A stretch of 47,373 bases of DNA from Planctomycetaceae bacterium (GTDB taxonomy: Bacteria > Planctomycetota > Planctomycetia > Pirellulales > Pirellulaceae). The position numbers were made by a program, and so were the translations under genes. The stretch lies in NCBI GenBank assembly GCA_005798335.1, contig SYJV01000007.1, positions 1-47,373 on the forward strand, in the 5' to 3' direction. Positions 2,076 to 47,373 of this stretch are shown one piece after another; the stretch's first letter is position 1, and every line of letters starts with the position of its first letter. Below the pieces are notes generated by a model. That model worked only from the letters and a program-made list of their open reading frames with translations. It was not told the DNA's origin and searched no databases.

Positions 2076-2088
2076 TCTCGCTTAGGCG

Positions 2089-2210
2089 CAATACCGTTCA
2101 ACGAACGTGGGATAAGCTTCCAGCTTGTCAATATCTTGTGCAAGCAATGGCGAAACTCCGCTACAGGTTGACAAGCTGGAAGCTTATCCCACGTTCGTTG
2201 AACGGTATTG
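2089..2210 (-). mobile_element. Palindromic MITE-like element, copy 1
   Basis: A 122-bp element has 43-bp perfectly inverted arms (begins CAATACCGTTC, ends with the reverse complement) and a 36-nt centre. The identical 10-bp sequence CGCTTAGGCG flanks it at 2079-2088 and 2211-2220, a target-site duplication. The centre is in the opposite orientation to copies at 6946 and 44090, hence the minus strand here. It has no coding capacity. Insertion is in the clpB/DUF481-gene intergenic region at the edge of another repeat (2214-2323). Confidence 0.9.
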
Positions 2211-2213
2211 CGC

Positions 2214-2323
2214 TTAGGCGACCGGTAGATGGGTTCTTACCAATACCGCCCGAGGCGCAAGCGAGTGCGTGCCAGGTTTTACGTACTCGCTTGCGCTTCG
2301 GGCTTGTATCCGCTCAATCGCTA
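2214..2323. repeat. REP-like palindrome, GAAGCGCAAGCGAGTG family, copy 1
   Basis: Left arm around 2246-2268 (CCCGAGGCGCAAGCGAGTG) pairs with the inverted right arm around 2284-2311 (ACTCGCTTGCGCTTCGGG). The outer left end TTAGGCGACCGGTAGAT resembles the TTAGCGAGCGGCAG ends of the copies at 19463 and 35671. The right edge runs into the stop codon of the DUF481 gene at 2321. Confidence 0.75.
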
Positions 2324-6906: not shown

Positions 6907-6945
6907 TGGAAATCGCGAATCGTACTGAAGAGCGCCGATTAGAAG

Positions 6946-7076
6946 CAATACCGTTCAACGAACGTGGGATAAGCTTCCAGCGCTTCCAGCTTGTCAACCT
7001 GTAGCGGAGTTTCGCCATTGCTTGCACAAGATATTGACAAGCTGGAAGCTTATCCCACGTTCGTTGAACGGTATTG
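6946..7076 (+). mobile_element. Palindromic MITE-like element, copy 2
   Basis: Same 43-bp arms and 36-nt centre as the copies at 2089 and 44090, plus a 9-bp partial duplication in the left arm (CGCTTCCAG), giving 131 bp. Flanked by the 10-bp direct repeat CGATTAGAAG at 6936-6945 and 7077-7086. The right copy of this target duplication contains the stop codon of the porin gene at 7080, so insertion happened exactly at the gene end and left the reading frame intact. Confidence 0.92.
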
Positions 7077-7079
7077 CGA

Positions 7080-8774
7080 TTAGAAGTCAAAAGCCATGCG
7101 AGTTCCAAAACCGTGAATCCAACCGCTGCCCGCTGGAAATGAGAGGGTGTCGCTAACGTCACGGTGAGTGGCATGATAGTTGAATTGCAGTTTCATGTTA
7201 GGGTTCCAGAACCAATTCAAACCAGTGGTCAGGTTGTGGAGAATGCCACCGTTGAGCCCATCGTCATTCAAGTCTAAGAAGTTATAGCGAGCTCCCATCT
7301 GCCAAGCGCCTCGACCGTAGTGGCTGCCGCAATGTCGTTGGCGAACGATTGAAAACGTTTCTTGCGGCAACACACGATCGAATACACCTGTGTGGCGATT
7401 GTAGTGCTCGTGATCGCCCGGAGTGAGAAAGCGAAATAACTGAATATAGCCGCCGTGGTAAATGGCAGTGGCTCCAGTTGGAGCAGCCGAATTGGCTCGC
7501 GCGTCTTGCAAACCATTTACCAGGTATTCGCCCTGCAACGTCCATGGTCCAAAGACTCCCGCAATTTCGGCGTTGATCGTCTGGGAATCGTCGCCGAACA
7601 AAGTGATGCCCGCCGGGACCGGCCAATCTTGAGCTAGTCCCGCTCGAATGGCATCGCGAGTCCGAAAGACCTGAAACCGCGAGGCAATACCCTGATTCCC
7701 GGTCGCAGTGGCTTGCCTTGCTGAGAGGCCCAAGTGCAACAGGTTCGCTCCTTCGTTTTCGTACCACAGTAATCGTGTCAGCCTCGCAATAACGGAATAG
7801 TCGCTGTCACCGACGCTGTATCCGAACACGTTGTTTACGGGCTTAAAGATGCCTCCCGATATCACCCCATCTTCATTGTTGCCATAGTTGCGAAAGAACT
7901 GCAAACCTGGCGAAAAGCCGTTAAACGTACCTCCATAGAAAGTATCCTGATTGAACGACCTTTCCATCAGCGGTTGAAAGCGACTGCTCACAATATGCTC
8001 GAAACCGATTTGTTCTTTTTGGTTGCCCAGCCTCACGATGCCGAATATTGGCAGCTCTTTGGTTTGAACCCACAGATCCGTTGGTGCTGTCATGGCGATT
8101 TCTGAGAACCCAGGTGCGGTGCTACTGGTAGGCTGATTGCGCACTAGCACTGCATTAACGAAATCGAATTCGGCGGCCCAATCCATCGTTTGATAGAGCG
8201 TACCGTCCATTCGAAAGCGGGCTCGACGAAAATCAAAGCCATCATGGTATGGAAAGCTGATGTTGTCTTGCACGTTTTGTGGAACACTGTACCAACTGGA
8301 GTCAAATTGGAATCTGCCGCCTATGTGAACGCGAAAATCCTTGTTCTTGGATGTCAGTTCCAGTCCATGATTCCATTTTGCGTCCATATTCAGTTCGCTG
8401 CCCGATGACGCTGGTGTGCTGTCTGTCTGCAATTCGGCAGCAACTGATTTCTTCTCATCGAGCTCGTTCAGATACTCGTCGACTAATCTGCGAATCTGTT
8501 CTTGATCAACGATTGTTGCGGACGATGGGCTCGCATCAGGGCGGTCGGTTGCGACGTCTGAGGATGCGCGGTCCTGCGCCGCGGCCGGCGGTTGGACGTT
8601 GGATCTCGAGGAATCGCCATCGGATGCCGACGAAGCACTATGAAACGCGACCGGCGTTGCAAAATGCACAGACGGCTCTTGCGCCATTGAAACTCGCAAT
8701 AGGATTAGCGCGCATCCTCCGACGATTGCCCAGAGTCTCAGCCAACGACAAAATGAATTGCGTATGTTTAGCAT
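7080..8774 (-). CDS. Phosphate-selective-type porin (OprP/OprO family)
   Basis: 564 residues. Signal peptide with hydrophobic core LWAIVGGCALILL and cleavage near SMAQEP, then a low-complexity linker, a short coiled coil (QEQIRRLVDEYLNELDEKK, about residues 90-110) and a barrel. The barrel opens with VHIGGRFQFDSSWY and ends with RMAFDF, terminal Phe. Motifs such as ARFRMDGTLYQTMDWAAEFDFVNA, LGNQKEQIGFE and QGEYLVNGLQDA are typical of the porin O/P family (PF07396). These trimeric outer-membrane channels pass phosphate or other anions, but substrate here is unproven. Start 8774 has no strong ribosome site but is the only Met placing the signal peptide correctly. Confidence 0.9.
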   Translation of the reverse strand: MLNIRNSFCRWLRLWAIVGGCALILLRVSMAQEPSVHFATPVAFHSASSASDGDSSRSNVQPPAAAQDRASSDVATDRPDASPSSATIVDQEQIRRLVDEYLNELDEKKSVAAELQTDSTPASSGSELNMDAKWNHGLELTSKNKDFRVHIGGRFQFDSSWYSVPQNVQDNISFPYHDGFDFRRARFRMDGTLYQTMDWAAEFDFVNAVLVRNQPTSSTAPGFSEIAMTAPTDLWVQTKELPIFGIVRLGNQKEQIGFEHIVSSRFQPLMERSFNQDTFYGGTFNGFSPGLQFFRNYGNNEDGVISGGIFKPVNNVFGYSVGDSDYSVIARLTRLLWYENEGANLLHLGLSARQATATGNQGIASRFQVFRTRDAIRAGLAQDWPVPAGITLFGDDSQTINAEIAGVFGPWTLQGEYLVNGLQDARANSAAPTGATAIYHGGYIQLFRFLTPGDHEHYNRHTGVFDRVLPQETFSIVRQRHCGSHYGRGAWQMGARYNFLDLNDDGLNGGILHNLTTGLNWFWNPNMKLQFNYHATHRDVSDTLSFPAGSGWIHGFGTRMAFDF

Positions 8775-19677: not shown

Positions 19678-19760
19678 CGAGAAATAAGTGTCAGGTACCT
19701 TTTGCGAGAAACTCGTCCTTCGGGTGCTGCGCACAAAAGGTACCTGACACTTATTTCTCG
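19678..19760. repeat. Perfect palindrome, AAATAAGTGTCAGGTACC family
   Basis: 27-bp perfect inverted arms (19678-19704 and 19734-19760) enclose a 29-nt centre. TTAG lies at 19667-19670, just outside the left foot. The GAAATAAGTGTC tip is shared with the middle pair at 10869-10880. The right arm ends 24 bases before the ATG of the decarboxylase gene at 19785, so any transcript starting upstream would carry this hairpin in its leader. Confidence 0.9.
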
Positions 19761-31336: not shown

Positions 31337-31626
31337 CGTTTGCCTCCAGCCATTGCAGATGAGGGAAGTGGCAGGCGTGAAACCTTCTACGCAGCAGTAT
31401 CAGCGCTGAGGAATTCTTGCGATTGCCTTGGGGAACGGTGGCGGGCGATTTGTATCGTCCTGATGGAATCTCAGTGCGTCGTCAAGACCAGTAAAAGCAA
31501 ATTCAAAAGTGATCTACTTGGGTCAATGAAGAGATTGAGCGCGTAGCAAGCGGATTTCAATGGCCTTCTGGATGGAATTGCTAGATAGCCGATAAGGCGA
31601 CTTTGCCCGCGAAGCGGGCGCGCGTC

Positions 31627-31742
31627 AGTCCCAACGGGACGGTCCTACAATAGCCTAGGGTGGAGCGTAGCGGCAACGCCGCGTAGCGCAACCCTAGGAG
31701 CGGGACGCCAAAATCCACATTAGTCCCAACGGGACGGTCCTA
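31627..31742. repeat. Left REP array of the Y1-transposase module
   Basis: Contains two AGTCCCAACGGGACGGTCCT units (31627-31646 and 31722-31741) around a 45-bp imperfect hairpin (31654-31698, ends CCTAGGGT and ACCCTAGG). A small perfect hairpin GCCCGC-GAA-GCGGGC lies just outside at 31605-31619. The whole array recurs in inverted orientation at 32267-32387. The stretch from 31337 to 31604 holds no recognisable gene. Confidence 0.9.
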
Positions 31743-31804: not shown

Positions 31805-32266
31805 ATGATGCCCCAATCGCTCGCACAGATCTATGTACACCTCGTATTTAGTACCAAGGAGCGCAGACGTTGGCTCGACACCGACGAATTGCGAACGGAA
31901 TTGTACGCCTACATGGCAGCAATCCTGCGCGACAATGTCGATTCGCCTGCGGTGCTAATCGGTGGTGTCGAAGACCATGTGCATGTGTTGATGTCGATGA
32001 GCCGCAAATTCGCGTTGATGGATATCGTTCAACAGGCCAAGGCGGAAACTTCCAAATGGATTAAAAGAAGCAAGGGATCTGGTGACAATTTCGCGTGGCA
32101 AGCGGGCTACGGAGCATTCTCGGTGAGCGCATCGCAGGTCGAAACCGTAAAAGGTTACATAGCGCGTCAGGCCGAACATCACCACCGTCAATCATTTCAG
32201 GATGAGTTTCGTGTATTGTGTGCCCGCCATGAATTGCCATTGGATGAACGTTACGCGTGGGATTAG
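31805..32266 (+). CDS. IS200/IS605-like (REP-associated) Y1 transposase
   Basis: 153 residues (ATG at 31805 or 31808). Y1_Tnp fold: N-terminal strand AQIYVHLVFSTKERRRWL, the HUH motif EDHVHVLMSM (His58 and His60), AKAETSKWIKR, the family signature FAWQAGYGAFSVSASQ, and the nucleophile Tyr118 in VETVKGYIARQAEHH. All catalytic residues are present, so it is probably functional. Single-strand transposases of this family recognise hairpins next to short guide sequences. There is no TnpB or other cargo gene. It sits between inverted REP arrays and its stop codon touches the right one, the arrangement called a REPtron in enterobacteria. Confidence 0.93.
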   Translation: MMPQSLAQIYVHLVFSTKERRRWLDTDELRTELYAYMAAILRDNVDSPAVLIGGVEDHVHVLMSMSRKFALMDIVQQAKAETSKWIKRSKGSGDNFAWQAGYGAFSVSASQVETVKGYIARQAEHHHRQSFQDEFRVLCARHELPLDERYAWD

Positions 32267-32387
32267 GGCCGTCCCGTTGGGACTAATGTGGAACTCTCGT
32301 GATCCGTTTCCTAGGGTTACGCTACGCGGCGTTGCCGCTACGCTCCACCCTAGGCTATTGTAGGACCGTCCCGTTGGGACTAATGTG
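32267..32387. repeat. Right REP array of the Y1-transposase module
   Basis: Two GTCCCGTTGGGACTAATGTG units (32271-32290 and 32368-32387) flank a 45-bp hairpin at 32310-32354. That hairpin is the reverse complement of the one at 31654-31698 with a single mismatch. CTAATG (reverse of CATTAG) ends each unit. It begins immediately after the transposase stop codon. Confidence 0.9.
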
Positions 32388-32420
32388 AGCGATTGGCAAC
32401 TTCCAAGTCACAACTTTGGT

Positions 32421-35670: not shown

Positions 35671-35848
35671 GGCGAGCGGCAGATAGGAATTTACCAATAC
35701 AAGCCCGAAGCGCAAGCGAGTGCCTACAAGCCCGAAGCGCAAGCGAGTGCCTACAAGCCCGAAGCGCAAGCGAGTGCCGAAACCACGCACGAGTCAATCC
35801 TGGCTCACACTCGCTTGCGCTTCGGGCTTGTACTGCCGCTCGCTAAAG
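35671..35848. repeat. REP-like element with three tandem 27-bp units, copy 3
   Basis: Three perfect, directly adjacent 27-bp repeats (35698-35724, 35725-35751, 35752-35778; TACAAGCCCGAAGCGCAAGC...) face one inverted unit at 35808-35832. Outer ends are GGCGAGCGGCAGAT (35671-35684) and CTGCCGCTCGCTAAAG (35833-35848). The right edge lies 4 bases from the stop codon of the PD40 gene. A reading frame through it (QARSASEC repeated) is a translation artefact. Confidence 0.92.
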
Positions 35849-43857: not shown

Positions 43858-44089
43858 AGTGTTTCGCAGAGAAGTTTCGCAGAGAAGTGTTGTGCAAAAC
43901 GTCCTGCCGAGGATGAAAACTCATTCAAATCATGCAAGAGTTGAACCATCCCGCAGTTTCGAGTTGCCGAGTGCTCCGGTGTGCTATAAGATCGCTGTTG
44001 CAGTTATTGTTTATCCGCGAAATGGGAGGGAGAGGCTCCTGCCGAGCCTTGATTCCTCTCCAATTCTTTTCCGGACAGGCGTTTAGTAG

Positions 44090-44211
44090 CAATACCGTTC
44101 AACGAACGTGGGATAAGCTTCCAGCTTGTCAACCTGTAGCGGAGTTTCGCCATTGCTTGCACAAGATATTGACAAGCTGGAAGCTTATCCCACGTTCGTT
44201 GAACGGTATTG
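44090..44211 (+). mobile_element. Palindromic MITE-like element, copy 3
   Basis: 122 bp, identical in arms and centre to copy 1 except that the 36-nt centre is inverted relative to it and matches copy 2. Flanked by the 10-bp direct repeat CGTTTAGTAG at 44080-44089 and 44212-44221. It lies about 100 bases upstream of rnpB, so it may separate or replace part of the rnpB promoter. The preceding 43858-44079 holds no gene, only a short GTTTCGCAGAGAA direct repeat. Confidence 0.92.
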
Positions 44212-44311
44212 CGTTTAGTAGTGTCAAGTTGACCGGTCATGATCGGTCCACAGTTTTTCGAAATATGGTTCGCCAGATGGTCGCTGCCCAGGCTGTCGCA
44301 GCACTATAGAA

Positions 44312-44728
44312 GTGTGTTACGGCGGGTTTGGGGAGAGGAAAGTCCGGGCTTCACAGGACAGAGTGGTCGGTAACTCCGACCGGCTGAAAGGCTAGGGAAA
44401 GTGCCACAGAAATCAAACCGCCAACGCGCTTCCGTGGGCAACCACCGGCTGCGCACGGCAAGGGTGAAACGGTGAGGTAAGAGCTCACCAGCGGCCGAGG
44501 TGACTCGGTCGGCTAGGCAAACCCCACTCGAAGCAAGATCAAACAGGCTACCATTCTTTGCACCGCGTGTAACAACGCAGTTCAGGGATGCGACTCGGTC
44601 CGGGTCGTTCGGTATCCGGGTAGATCGCTCGAGGCCACGAGCAATCGCGGCCCTAGATAAATGACCGTCGTGGCCGAGAGTTCGCAAGAACTCCCGGCCA
44701 TCACAAAACCCGGCTTATCGGCGAACCA
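44312..44728 (+). ncRNA. rnpB: RNase P RNA, bacterial type A
   Basis: All conserved RNase P landmarks are present in order: GAGGAAAGTCCGGGCT (44334-44349, P4/CR-I), GACCGG helix, GGCTAGGGAAAGTGCCACAGAAA, GGGTGAAACGGTGAGGTAAGAGC (CR-II/III, about 44461), GGCAAACCCC, and AGATAAATGACCGTC near 44656 (CR-V). The 3' end is followed by TTTTTT at 44729-44734. Ends are approximate to about 10 bases. The RNA processes tRNA 5' leaders with the RnpA protein. A reading frame on the other strand across this region is a shadow. Confidence 0.97.
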
Positions 44729-44739
44729 TTTTTTGATTC

Positions 44740-46381: not shown

Positions 46382-47071
46382 ATGGAGTATTGCGTCAAGC
46401 ATGGTCCCGTGTTCTCAGTGCTGGAATTCAATTTCAACGAAGCGGAACTAGTTGAAGCGCAACCTGACAGTATGTTGGCCATGACCCCAGGCATCCAACT
46501 GACTGCCAAAATGGGCCGGCGCGGTGCTGGTTCGGCTTGGTGGAGTGGAATCAAGGGAATGTTAGGTGGCGAAAGCCTCTTTACCGCAGAGTTTCGCGCT
46601 AAGCGAGATAGCCAATTTCTATCACTTGCACCCGCCGCGAATGGCGACATTTTTGAAATCAAGCTGAAAGACGCAGGAGGATTCTACTTAACTCGCGGTT
46701 CCTACCTAGCAAACATTGGCACTTGCTCGATGCAAATCAAATATGGAGGCATCAAAGGAATGATGTCCAATACCGGCCTTTTCCTCCTGCATGTCGCCGG
46801 TGAAGGAACGGTGTTCTGTCAATCCTACGGTGCAGTGATCAACAAGACGTTGAGCGAAAATGAACACTTCGTGGTCGATAATCGCTACGTCGTTGCCTTC
46901 AGCGATACAATTCGCTATCAGTTGGTAAAAGCCACATCGAGTATGAAAGATGCATTCCTGTCTGGTGAAGGGCTGGTAAATCGCTTTACCGGTCCAGGCA
47001 TCTTGATCTACCAAACTCGCGCCAAACAAACAGTTGGTCTGGTCAGCCGCATGTTTGAATTGGCGAGATAG
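46382..47071 (+). CDS. AIM24 family (TIGR00266-like) protein
   Basis: 229 residues, the usual length. The protein is a beta-helix-like fold with the family pattern: ELVEAQPDSMLAMTPGIQLTAKM, GGESLFTAEFRA, GGFYLTRGSYLA, GLFLLHVAGEGTVFCQSYG and the C-terminal GEGLVNRFTGPGILIYQTR. Bacterial members are cytoplasmic or membrane-peripheral proteins of unknown role; the eukaryotic Aim24 is mitochondrial. A degenerate copy of its last 14 codons occurs at 47268-47310. Confidence 0.9.
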   Translation: MEYCVKHGPVFSVLEFNFNEAELVEAQPDSMLAMTPGIQLTAKMGRRGAGSAWWSGIKGMLGGESLFTAEFRAKRDSQFLSLAPAANGDIFEIKLKDAGGFYLTRGSYLANIGTCSMQIKYGGIKGMMSNTGLFLLHVAGEGTVFCQSYGAVINKTLSENEHFVVDNRYVVAFSDTIRYQLVKATSSMKDAFLSGEGLVNRFTGPGILIYQTRAKQTVGLVSRMFELAR

Positions 47072-47127
47072 GTCATTCGATTGTGCTCCTAAACCCGACG
47101 CGGAACTTCTCAGTGGCCTCACTGCCC

Positions 47128-47165
47128 CTGGAGCCACAGAACTACACAGAACGAGCACGGAAAAA
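47128..47165 (+). repeat. 38-bp direct repeat, unit 1
   Basis: The 38-base sequence CTGGAGCCACAGAACTACAC... ending CACGGAAAAA occurs identically at 47336-47373. Each unit follows a copy of the AIM24 gene 3' end. A diverged inverted relative lies at 47211-47243 (TTTCCGTGTGATGTCCGTGT...), and the units share a roughly 11-base periodic CACRGA core. Confidence 0.85.
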
Positions 47166-47267
47166 TACAGCGACCGCTAAAATTAAGCATATGCATTATT
47201 TCGATGCTCCTATTTCCGTGTGATGTCCGTGTTGTTCCGTGGCCTGATTGAAATCCCTGGCACTACA

Positions 47268-47310
47268 CCAAATTCGCTCCAAGCAAATCGTTGCCCTGGT
47301 CAGCCGCATG
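47268..47310 (+). pseudogene. Relic of a second AIM24-family gene 3' end
   Basis: This stretch aligns to 47011-47053 of the intact AIM24 gene with about three quarters of bases matching. In the matching frame it reads QIRSKQIVALVSRM against QTRAKQTVGLVSRM. Most base changes between the two are at third positions or conservative, as expected of a former paralogous gene. Nothing upstream (47072-47267) resembles the rest of the protein, so only the end remains. Confidence 0.6.
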
Positions 47311-47335
47311 GCATATCGCAGTGGTCTCAATGCCA

Positions 47336-47373
47336 CTGGAGCCACAGAACTACACAGAACGAGCACGGAAAAA
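47336..47373 (+). repeat. 38-bp direct repeat, unit 2 (reaches window edge)
   Basis: Identical to 47128-47165 over all 38 bases and running to the last base of the window, so the true repeat may be longer. Confidence 0.85.

Follow-up and report, generated by a model that had tools for sequence, protein, structure and literature searches.

The window analysed here, a stretch of 47,373 nucleotides that is contig C542 of an 8.46-Mb draft assembly (558 contigs, 97.5% complete), contains three copies of a short palindromic element that we interpret below as a MITE. They lie at 2089-2210 (122 bp, plus strand), 6946-7076 (131 bp, minus strand) and 44090-44211 (122 bp, minus strand), and each is enclosed by a different exact 10-bp direct repeat: CGCTTAGGCG around copy 1 (2079-2088 and 2211-2220), CGATTAGAAG around copy 2 (6936-6945 and 7077-7086) and CGTTTAGTAG around copy 3 (44080-44089 and 44212-44221). 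All three had been reported with these repeats in a first-pass annotation of the window, and all are present. The element ends in CAATACCG/CGGTATTG, the exact end also being written CAATACCGTTCAACGAAC. In copy 1, the outermost parts are 17-bp terminal inverted repeats, CAATACCGTTCAACGAA, at 2089-2105 (plus strand) and 2194-2210 (minus strand), which are the part common to IS4-type insertion sequences. Inside them are a hairpin repeat, GTGGGATAAGCTTCCAGCTTGTC, at 2107-2129 (plus strand) and its inverted copy at 2170-2192 (minus strand), on either side of a non-palindromic centre of 36 nt (2132-2167); we call the hairpin repeat REP-like for its appearance, a description that does not make it a RAYT REP. 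Copy 3 is the exact reverse complement of copy 1. The first-pass annotation described 43-bp perfect arms and a 36-nt centre in all three copies, which holds for copies 1 and 3 and fails for copy 2, where GCTTCCAGC is doubled in tandem in one arm (6973-6990), giving 131 bp in place of 122 bp and uninterrupted arms of about 36 bp (37 if one flanking base is counted).

Six matches to the element end with up to three mismatches occur in the window, compared with a mean of 1.28 and a maximum of five in 100 shuffles. In an Rfam scan of the window, RNase P alone scored above threshold, and the element matched no known RNA family. Copy 3 lies shortly before the RNase P RNA gene (44265-44733), at the place expected for the promoter of that gene, with 43 bases between the end of the right duplication and the RNase P RNA match. 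The window holds other repeats as well. A 27-nt tandem repeat, TACAAGCCCGAAGCGCAAGCGAGTGCC, is found at 35698-35835 and 2243-2315, and further parts of the window hold inverted and single copies of it; the end of the window (47010-47373) includes two diverged direct repeats of 44 and 58 nt at spacings of 257 and 208. A small palindrome beginning CGAGAAATAAGTGTCAGGTACC, with 27-nt perfect arms, is located at 19678-19760; it is probably a second MITE, because 20 of its bases recur, inverted, just behind an IS4-family transposase fragment on contig C117 (L059).

In the whole genome, the exact 19-bp end was found 161 times in forward and 151 times in reverse orientation, with no occurrence of the reversed control in either. 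Chance is excluded as the source of the end matches in the window and the genome, and from the number of exact ends the genome holds roughly 150-160 copies of the element. In a BLAST search with the element, 40 of 273 candidates were scored, every one of them 100% identical. Flanks were studied in a sample of 125 sources from the same genome (the window and fetched loci), covering 1.23 Mb with overlaps included, in which intact copies are over-represented because the loci were picked mostly by matches to the arms. After removal of duplicates by flank, these sources contained element matches at 126 places, comprising 85 full copies and 41 partial ones, the latter mostly cut by contig ends or nested insertions and a few degenerate or recombined. 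Both 10-bp flanks were readable in 80 full copies, the flank being too short in the other five. The 10-bp duplication is exact in 56 of the 80 and imperfect in 24 (one mismatch in 8, two in 5, three or more in 11), so that 64 copies have at most one mismatch and 69 at most two; no readable copy has flanks that match exactly over 11 or 12 bp. When flanks were re-paired at random, exact pairs numbered 0.8 on average and five at most, against the 56 observed. These 56 duplications represent 51 distinct sequences, and when taken in both orientations they give a palindromic target consensus of approximately CGNYTARNCG (per position C 62%, G 69%, N, T 64%/C 31%, T 93%, A 93%, A 64%/G 31%, N, C 69%, G 62%).

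Empty sites were sought by joining the two flanks of each copy with an exact duplication, minus one duplication. A match spanning the junction was obtained for 14 of the 56, several of these being trivial self-matches of one flank and others partial. The joined flanks of three copies (L093, L086 and L069) match an uninterrupted larger repeat over 119-120 bases at 97.5-100% identity: the site of L093:8961 is perfect, with 120 of 120 bases equal, and the other two are at 97.5-98%, all three within the same kind of host repeat. The exact duplications and the perfect empty site bear out the proposal of the first-pass annotation that the element moves as a defined unit with the ends given above. 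Its second proposal, recent activity, agrees with the divergence of 77 copies of 122 bp, of which 41 have exactly the sequence of copy 1 and another 31 differ from it by one base (17) or two (14), in a sample that favours good matches; copies this similar point to a recent burst. A different repeat, about 207 bp long and with TGGACAGCGCCA at its ends, was noticed at L128:195-401 and in L093; it has several copies, some of which host the 122-bp element at CGTTTAACCC.

We searched 241 genomes of the same family as the window for relatives of the element. The end CAATACCGTTCAACG is present in 18 of them, the window's own genome included; its reversed control gave six single hits, and genomes with a single hit therefore mean little alone. 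In three relatives, the exact 17-bp MITE end lies at the C-terminus of a transposase (L225 in G190, L297 in G029 and L217 in G122), and the reading frame before it ends RRNRINPRVIKR... in each. The stop codon falls inside CGTTGAACGGTATTG in L225 and L297, while the L217 gene is frameshifted. A 42-aa query from the C-terminus of L225 matched 21 of the 241 genomes at E <= 0.01, two of which belong to the same genus as the window: G004, with a best E of 3e-18, and G008, a weak match at E 0.001. Among the 30 loci fetched by this query, 10 elements could be delimited with both ends; the other 20 are fragments, lie at contig edges or were not delimited.

These ten full-length elements measure 1,448-1,476 bp and have one ORF of 455-480 aa in those read, with an internal stop in L301. 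Exact 10-bp duplications enclose five of them (L294, L298, L302, L310 and L322), for example TCGTTAAACG around the 1,475-bp element L294 and CGTTTAACGA around the 1,471-bp element L298; the duplications of the rest have one mismatch (L301 and L308), two (L317), four (L316) or five (L296). Their ends read CAATAC..., and those of L294, L296, L298 and L301 are nearest to those of the MITE, with 14 of 15 positions equal. Most ends of these four read CAATACCGTTCAATG, not ...CAACG as in the MITE, and their targets are of the CGTTTAACG type, like those of the MITE. Where an exact ...CAACG end adjoined a transposase, the gene was in every case truncated or frameshifted. The more distant elements L302, L308, L310, L316, L317 and L322 have other, mostly palindromic targets, such as GGCTTCAGCC and AGTTTCAGTT. 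One relative, G169, has both kinds of element: one end of a MITE (L224) and both ends of the full element L296 begin CAATACCGTTCAATGAAG. Beyond the 17-bp end, no similarity was seen between the MITE of the window and the full elements.

All four transposases scanned from these loci contain PF13006 (Nterm_IS4) and PF01609 (DDE_Tnp_1) and score above the cut-off of NCBIfam NF033592. Seven were compared with E. coli InsG; the alignments span 391-431 residues, with 25-28% identity and E values of 6e-38 to 1e-29, and all seven keep the catalytic D, D and E as well as the Y(2)R(3)E(6)K motif. It was thus in relatives, and not in the genome of the window, that full-length insertion sequences with matching ends were found; their IS4-family DDE transposases lend support to the earlier suggestion that a DDE-type enzyme acting in trans is the more likely driver. 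De Palmenaer et al. 2008 (PMC2266710) describe the IS4 subgroup as having ends of the form -AATR--------WTW, in which WTW at positions 14-16 is mostly conserved; they give lengths of 1400-1650 bp and 10-13-bp duplications, and report marked insertion specificity for some elements. AATR is present in the MITE and at all 20 ends of the ten full-length elements, whose size, like the 10-bp duplication, also fits this subgroup. WTW is found at 9 of the 20 ends and at all three ends read in G004, and the MITE has CGA at these positions. Of the 17 positions of the MITE end, the two ends of E. coli IS4, TAATGCCGATCAGTTAAGG, share 11 and 10, and the duplication of that element is 12 bp.

Taken on sequence grounds, the element is very probably a non-autonomous MITE of the IS4 family, nearest the IS4 subgroup, that is moved by an IS4-type DDE transposase, and the family that the first-pass annotation did not recognise would accordingly be named as this one. 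The subgroup label is provisional, because WTW is absent from the MITE and present at only 9 of 20 full-element ends. The features that define MITEs are found in the element: it is small (122 bp) and gene-less, with 43-bp arms, 161 + 151 ends in the genome, duplications and empty sites. Its ends are also common to an autonomous insertion sequence, the 17 bp being identical beside the truncated or frameshifted IS4-type genes of three relatives. An autonomous partner in the same genome, which is not essential to the definition, was not found in the 558-contig draft. Five loci of this genome contain PF01609, and they are at most 24% identical to the transposases of the relatives in alignments of at least 200 residues; none is close to the drivers of the relatives, and all five were rejected as candidates. 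The sole CAATACCG end in these loci is that of an interrupted MITE on contig C54. The 42-aa query gave no match in this genome (six candidates scored). There are 26 CAATACCGTT sites without the usual MITE interior, compared with 18 in the reversed control, and the three that continue CAATACCGTTCAA are MITE variants. Similarly, the 19-bp end with an unusual interior occurs at 26 places in the genome, all of which are MITE variants or copies interrupted by insertions, with no new element among them. Carriage by viruses was considered and rejected, with 0 exact matches to the 23-bp end pattern in viral contigs; a search of viral contigs with the IS4-family fragment on C117 found no relative. Because the copies are nearly identical and the burst is therefore recent, we infer that the driver was lost from the genome after the burst, was not assembled, or acts from another replicon; it may also be a collapsed repeat that is missing from the draft. 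L061:684-2193 of the same genome holds an insertion sequence of roughly 1.5 kb that apparently splits a gene; its ends, CAGCCCTGTGAAGGTG, are 16 bp long and its duplication is 11 bp.

In several MITE copies, an element with ends CCTTGTTATACC, the variant CCTTTTTATACC, or CCTCTGTATTACC is inserted at GCTTCCAGC. The only nested copy readable on both sides (L032) shows a 9-bp duplication, GCTTCCAGC. Arms could be assigned for the copies named here, the remaining interrupted copies not being assignable. Elements of the CCTTGTTATACC and CCTTTTTATACC kinds lie in the same MITE arm in seven copies (L032, L063, L065, L067, L072, L073 and L082), and those of the CCTCTGTATTACC kind in the other arm (L068 and L125). 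Because the seven share one arm and their genomic flanks differ where readable, the data suggest that MITE and nested element moved together as a composite unit. Against such a unit stands the insertion on C54: L063 is its near side, but its far side, L033, has the interruption in the opposite arm, as a rearrangement would leave it. In all six 131-bp copies, a 9-bp doubling, five times GCTTCCAGC and once a variant, is found in the arm that the seven nested copies have in common. This doubling is likely a scar of excision, in which the nested element would have left both of its 9-bp duplications, and the tandem at 6973-6990 in copy 2 is probably such a footprint of an IS50-type element.

Paired MITEs of 101-179 bp were found in seven relatives (G003, G100, G126, G169, G020, G196 and G197). 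Among 25 distinct pairs read, the 10-bp duplication is exact in 11, with one mismatch in 7, two in 3 and more in 4. The MITEs of these seven relatives (L213-L261) have the same 15-18-bp ends and different inverted hairpin fillings, several of them REP-like. As compared by eye, with some copies changed, the filling is GTGGGATAAGCTTCCAGCTTGTC in the window's own genome, GTGGCATAGGCCTCTGGCCTGTG in G169, GTAGTGGACGAGGTTACGAGTCC in G020, G196 and G197, GTAGTGGATCTTGCCAAAGATCC in G126 and GTAGGCGAGTCTCTCCGAGACTCGC in G003. REPs combine a GTRG tag with an imperfect palindrome, and these lineage-specific fillings look like them.

Two other classes of transposase have to be weighed as possible drivers. 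It is very improbable that the element is moved by the IS50/Tn5-type IS4-family elements of its own genome, such as the one encoding the 498-aa transposase on C54. Elements of this type do sit inside MITE copies of this genome and inside a MITE in G020, and the C54 protein is the only match in the genome to the G020 transposase at E <= 1e-20 (six of eight candidates scored). However, a comparison of three copies shows that the G020 element has ends of its own, CTGTCGATTACCC, and is inserted in the MITE hairpin, the nested elements described above likewise have ends that differ from CAATACCG and a duplication of 9 bp in L032, and the plausible ends in 8 of 31 loci from relatives begin CT, with best duplications of 9 to 12 bp and no match to CAATACCG. 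A 1,699-bp unit in G020 (L242:1334-3032) with perfect CAATACCG outer ends and a Tn5-like transposase was rejected as the driver because it is this nested insertion with ends CTGTCGATTACCC; a Tn5-like insertion sequence nested in a MITE mimics an autonomous element and is a trap for automatic annotation. Equally hard to credit is a REP doublet (REPIN/BIME) spread by a Y1 (RAYT) transposase, even with an inner arm, GTGGGATAAGCTTCCAGCTTGTC, that resembles a GTGG tag plus imperfect hairpin, with 17 Y1 matches in the genome, and with occurrences of the same hairpin in relatives without CAATACCG ends, in tandem in G002. None of the 17 Y1 loci of the genome contains the hairpin. Thirty Y1 loci from ten relatives (among 52 matches listed) were searched for the five MITE hairpins; a single locus has one, separated from the Y1 gene by about 1.2 kb and another ORF. 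These results do not support a link to RAYT enzymes. In loci of the window's own genome, the hairpin adjoins a CAATACCG-like end 206 times and stands without one 8 times, those 8 resembling MITEs that are truncated, degenerate or at a contig edge; in 400 kb of G020, the hairpin of that genome (up to four mismatches) was found twice near an end and five times free, at two places. Y1 enzymes are not known to make target duplications. The first-pass annotation had considered that a hairpin REP mobilised by a Y1 enzyme does not fit, and the Y1 loci give no reason to revise this. The window itself has a Y1 (RAYT-like) transposase gene at 31805-32266, flanked by inverted copies of a TAGGACCGTCCCGTTGGGACTAATGTG repeat (31618-31742 and 32264-32390).

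The least plausible alternative is that the palindrome is kept as a functional hairpin, for example a terminator, and was spread by recombination, not transposition. What speaks for it are the positions of 41 copies, all with an exact duplication and no less than 1 kb of sequence to either side, examined with a crude ORF caller: 4 of the 41 lie inside an ORF of at least 120 aa, compared with 592 of 820 random positions, and the 36 intergenic copies with ORFs on both sides include a surplus of convergent arrangements (14 convergent, 18 tandem and 4 divergent, against 105, 407 and 105 among 617 neighbouring ORF pairs). Selection against gene disruption explains this bias equally well, and recombination does not create 10-bp duplications, 51 of them distinct among the 56, or a perfect empty site. 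A role for the hairpins also enters a broader idea that we regard as possible but rather unlikely: IS4-type ends may be a common vehicle that each lineage (the window's own, G003, G020/G196/G197, G126 and G169) loads with its own inverted REP-like hairpins; hairpin repeats would then owe their spread to a DDE transposase and not to Y1 enzymes of their own, and selection may act on the fully palindromic body, for instance as a bidirectional terminator between convergent genes.

For a MITE of the IS4 family, transposition would proceed as follows. An IS4-type DDE transposase, supplied in trans, would bind the 17-bp ends CAATACCGTTCAACGAA and cut the element out, presumably by cut-and-paste chemistry; insertion with a 10-bp stagger at a palindromic target close to CGNYTARNCG would follow, and gap repair would produce the 10-bp duplication. 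The unit, its duplications, target and empty site are observed directly, as are full-length insertion sequences of relatives with the same kind of ends, the duplication and an IS4 transposase. That the IS4-type transposase of the relatives, or one very like it, moved the copies of the window is the step we infer from these sequences, together with the action in trans and the chemistry.

This assignment names the class of driver for an abundant repeat family and explains its 10-bp mark, and such repeats in this family of bacteria can be annotated as MITEs in place of unknown palindromes. It leaves the known kinds of transposon unchanged. What is odd about the family is a large, seemingly recent burst with no resident transposase detected, the species-specific palindromic fillings and the 9-bp doublings. 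The burst of near-identical copies, with no driver detected in the genome, is a testable case of a MITE that outlived or borrowed its driver, and cut-and-paste excision may have left a natural record in the nested elements and the 9-bp doublings.

A literature search found no description of the 122-bp element in the titles and abstract openings among the matches listed. In comparison with REP/BIME/REPIN systems (RAYT, Y1), the element resembles them (cf. PMC3733652) in the inverted hairpin pair with a GTGG-like tag inside it, and it differs from them in its target duplications and IS4 ends and in that no Y1 gene flanked by its hairpin was found. The similarity to the IS4 subgroup (E. coli IS4, InsG) includes the -AATR ends (CAATA here and TAATG in E. 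coli), a duplication of about one helical turn (10 bp here and 12 bp for the K-12 IS4), and drivers in relatives with Nterm_IS4, DDE and YREK; unlike members of that subgroup, the element of the window is 122 bp long without a gene, has CGA in place of WTW and uses the specific palindromic target CGNYTARNCG. Like other bacterial MITEs, it is small and gene-less, with terminal inverted repeats, target duplications, many copies and ends common to a full insertion sequence. It constitutes a new MITE family of a known kind with a mechanism of a known kind, and is set apart from other bacterial MITEs by the lack of a detected autonomous partner in its own genome, by arms that extend to 43 bp and make it a near-total palindrome, and by fillings that vary between species while the ends remain constant.
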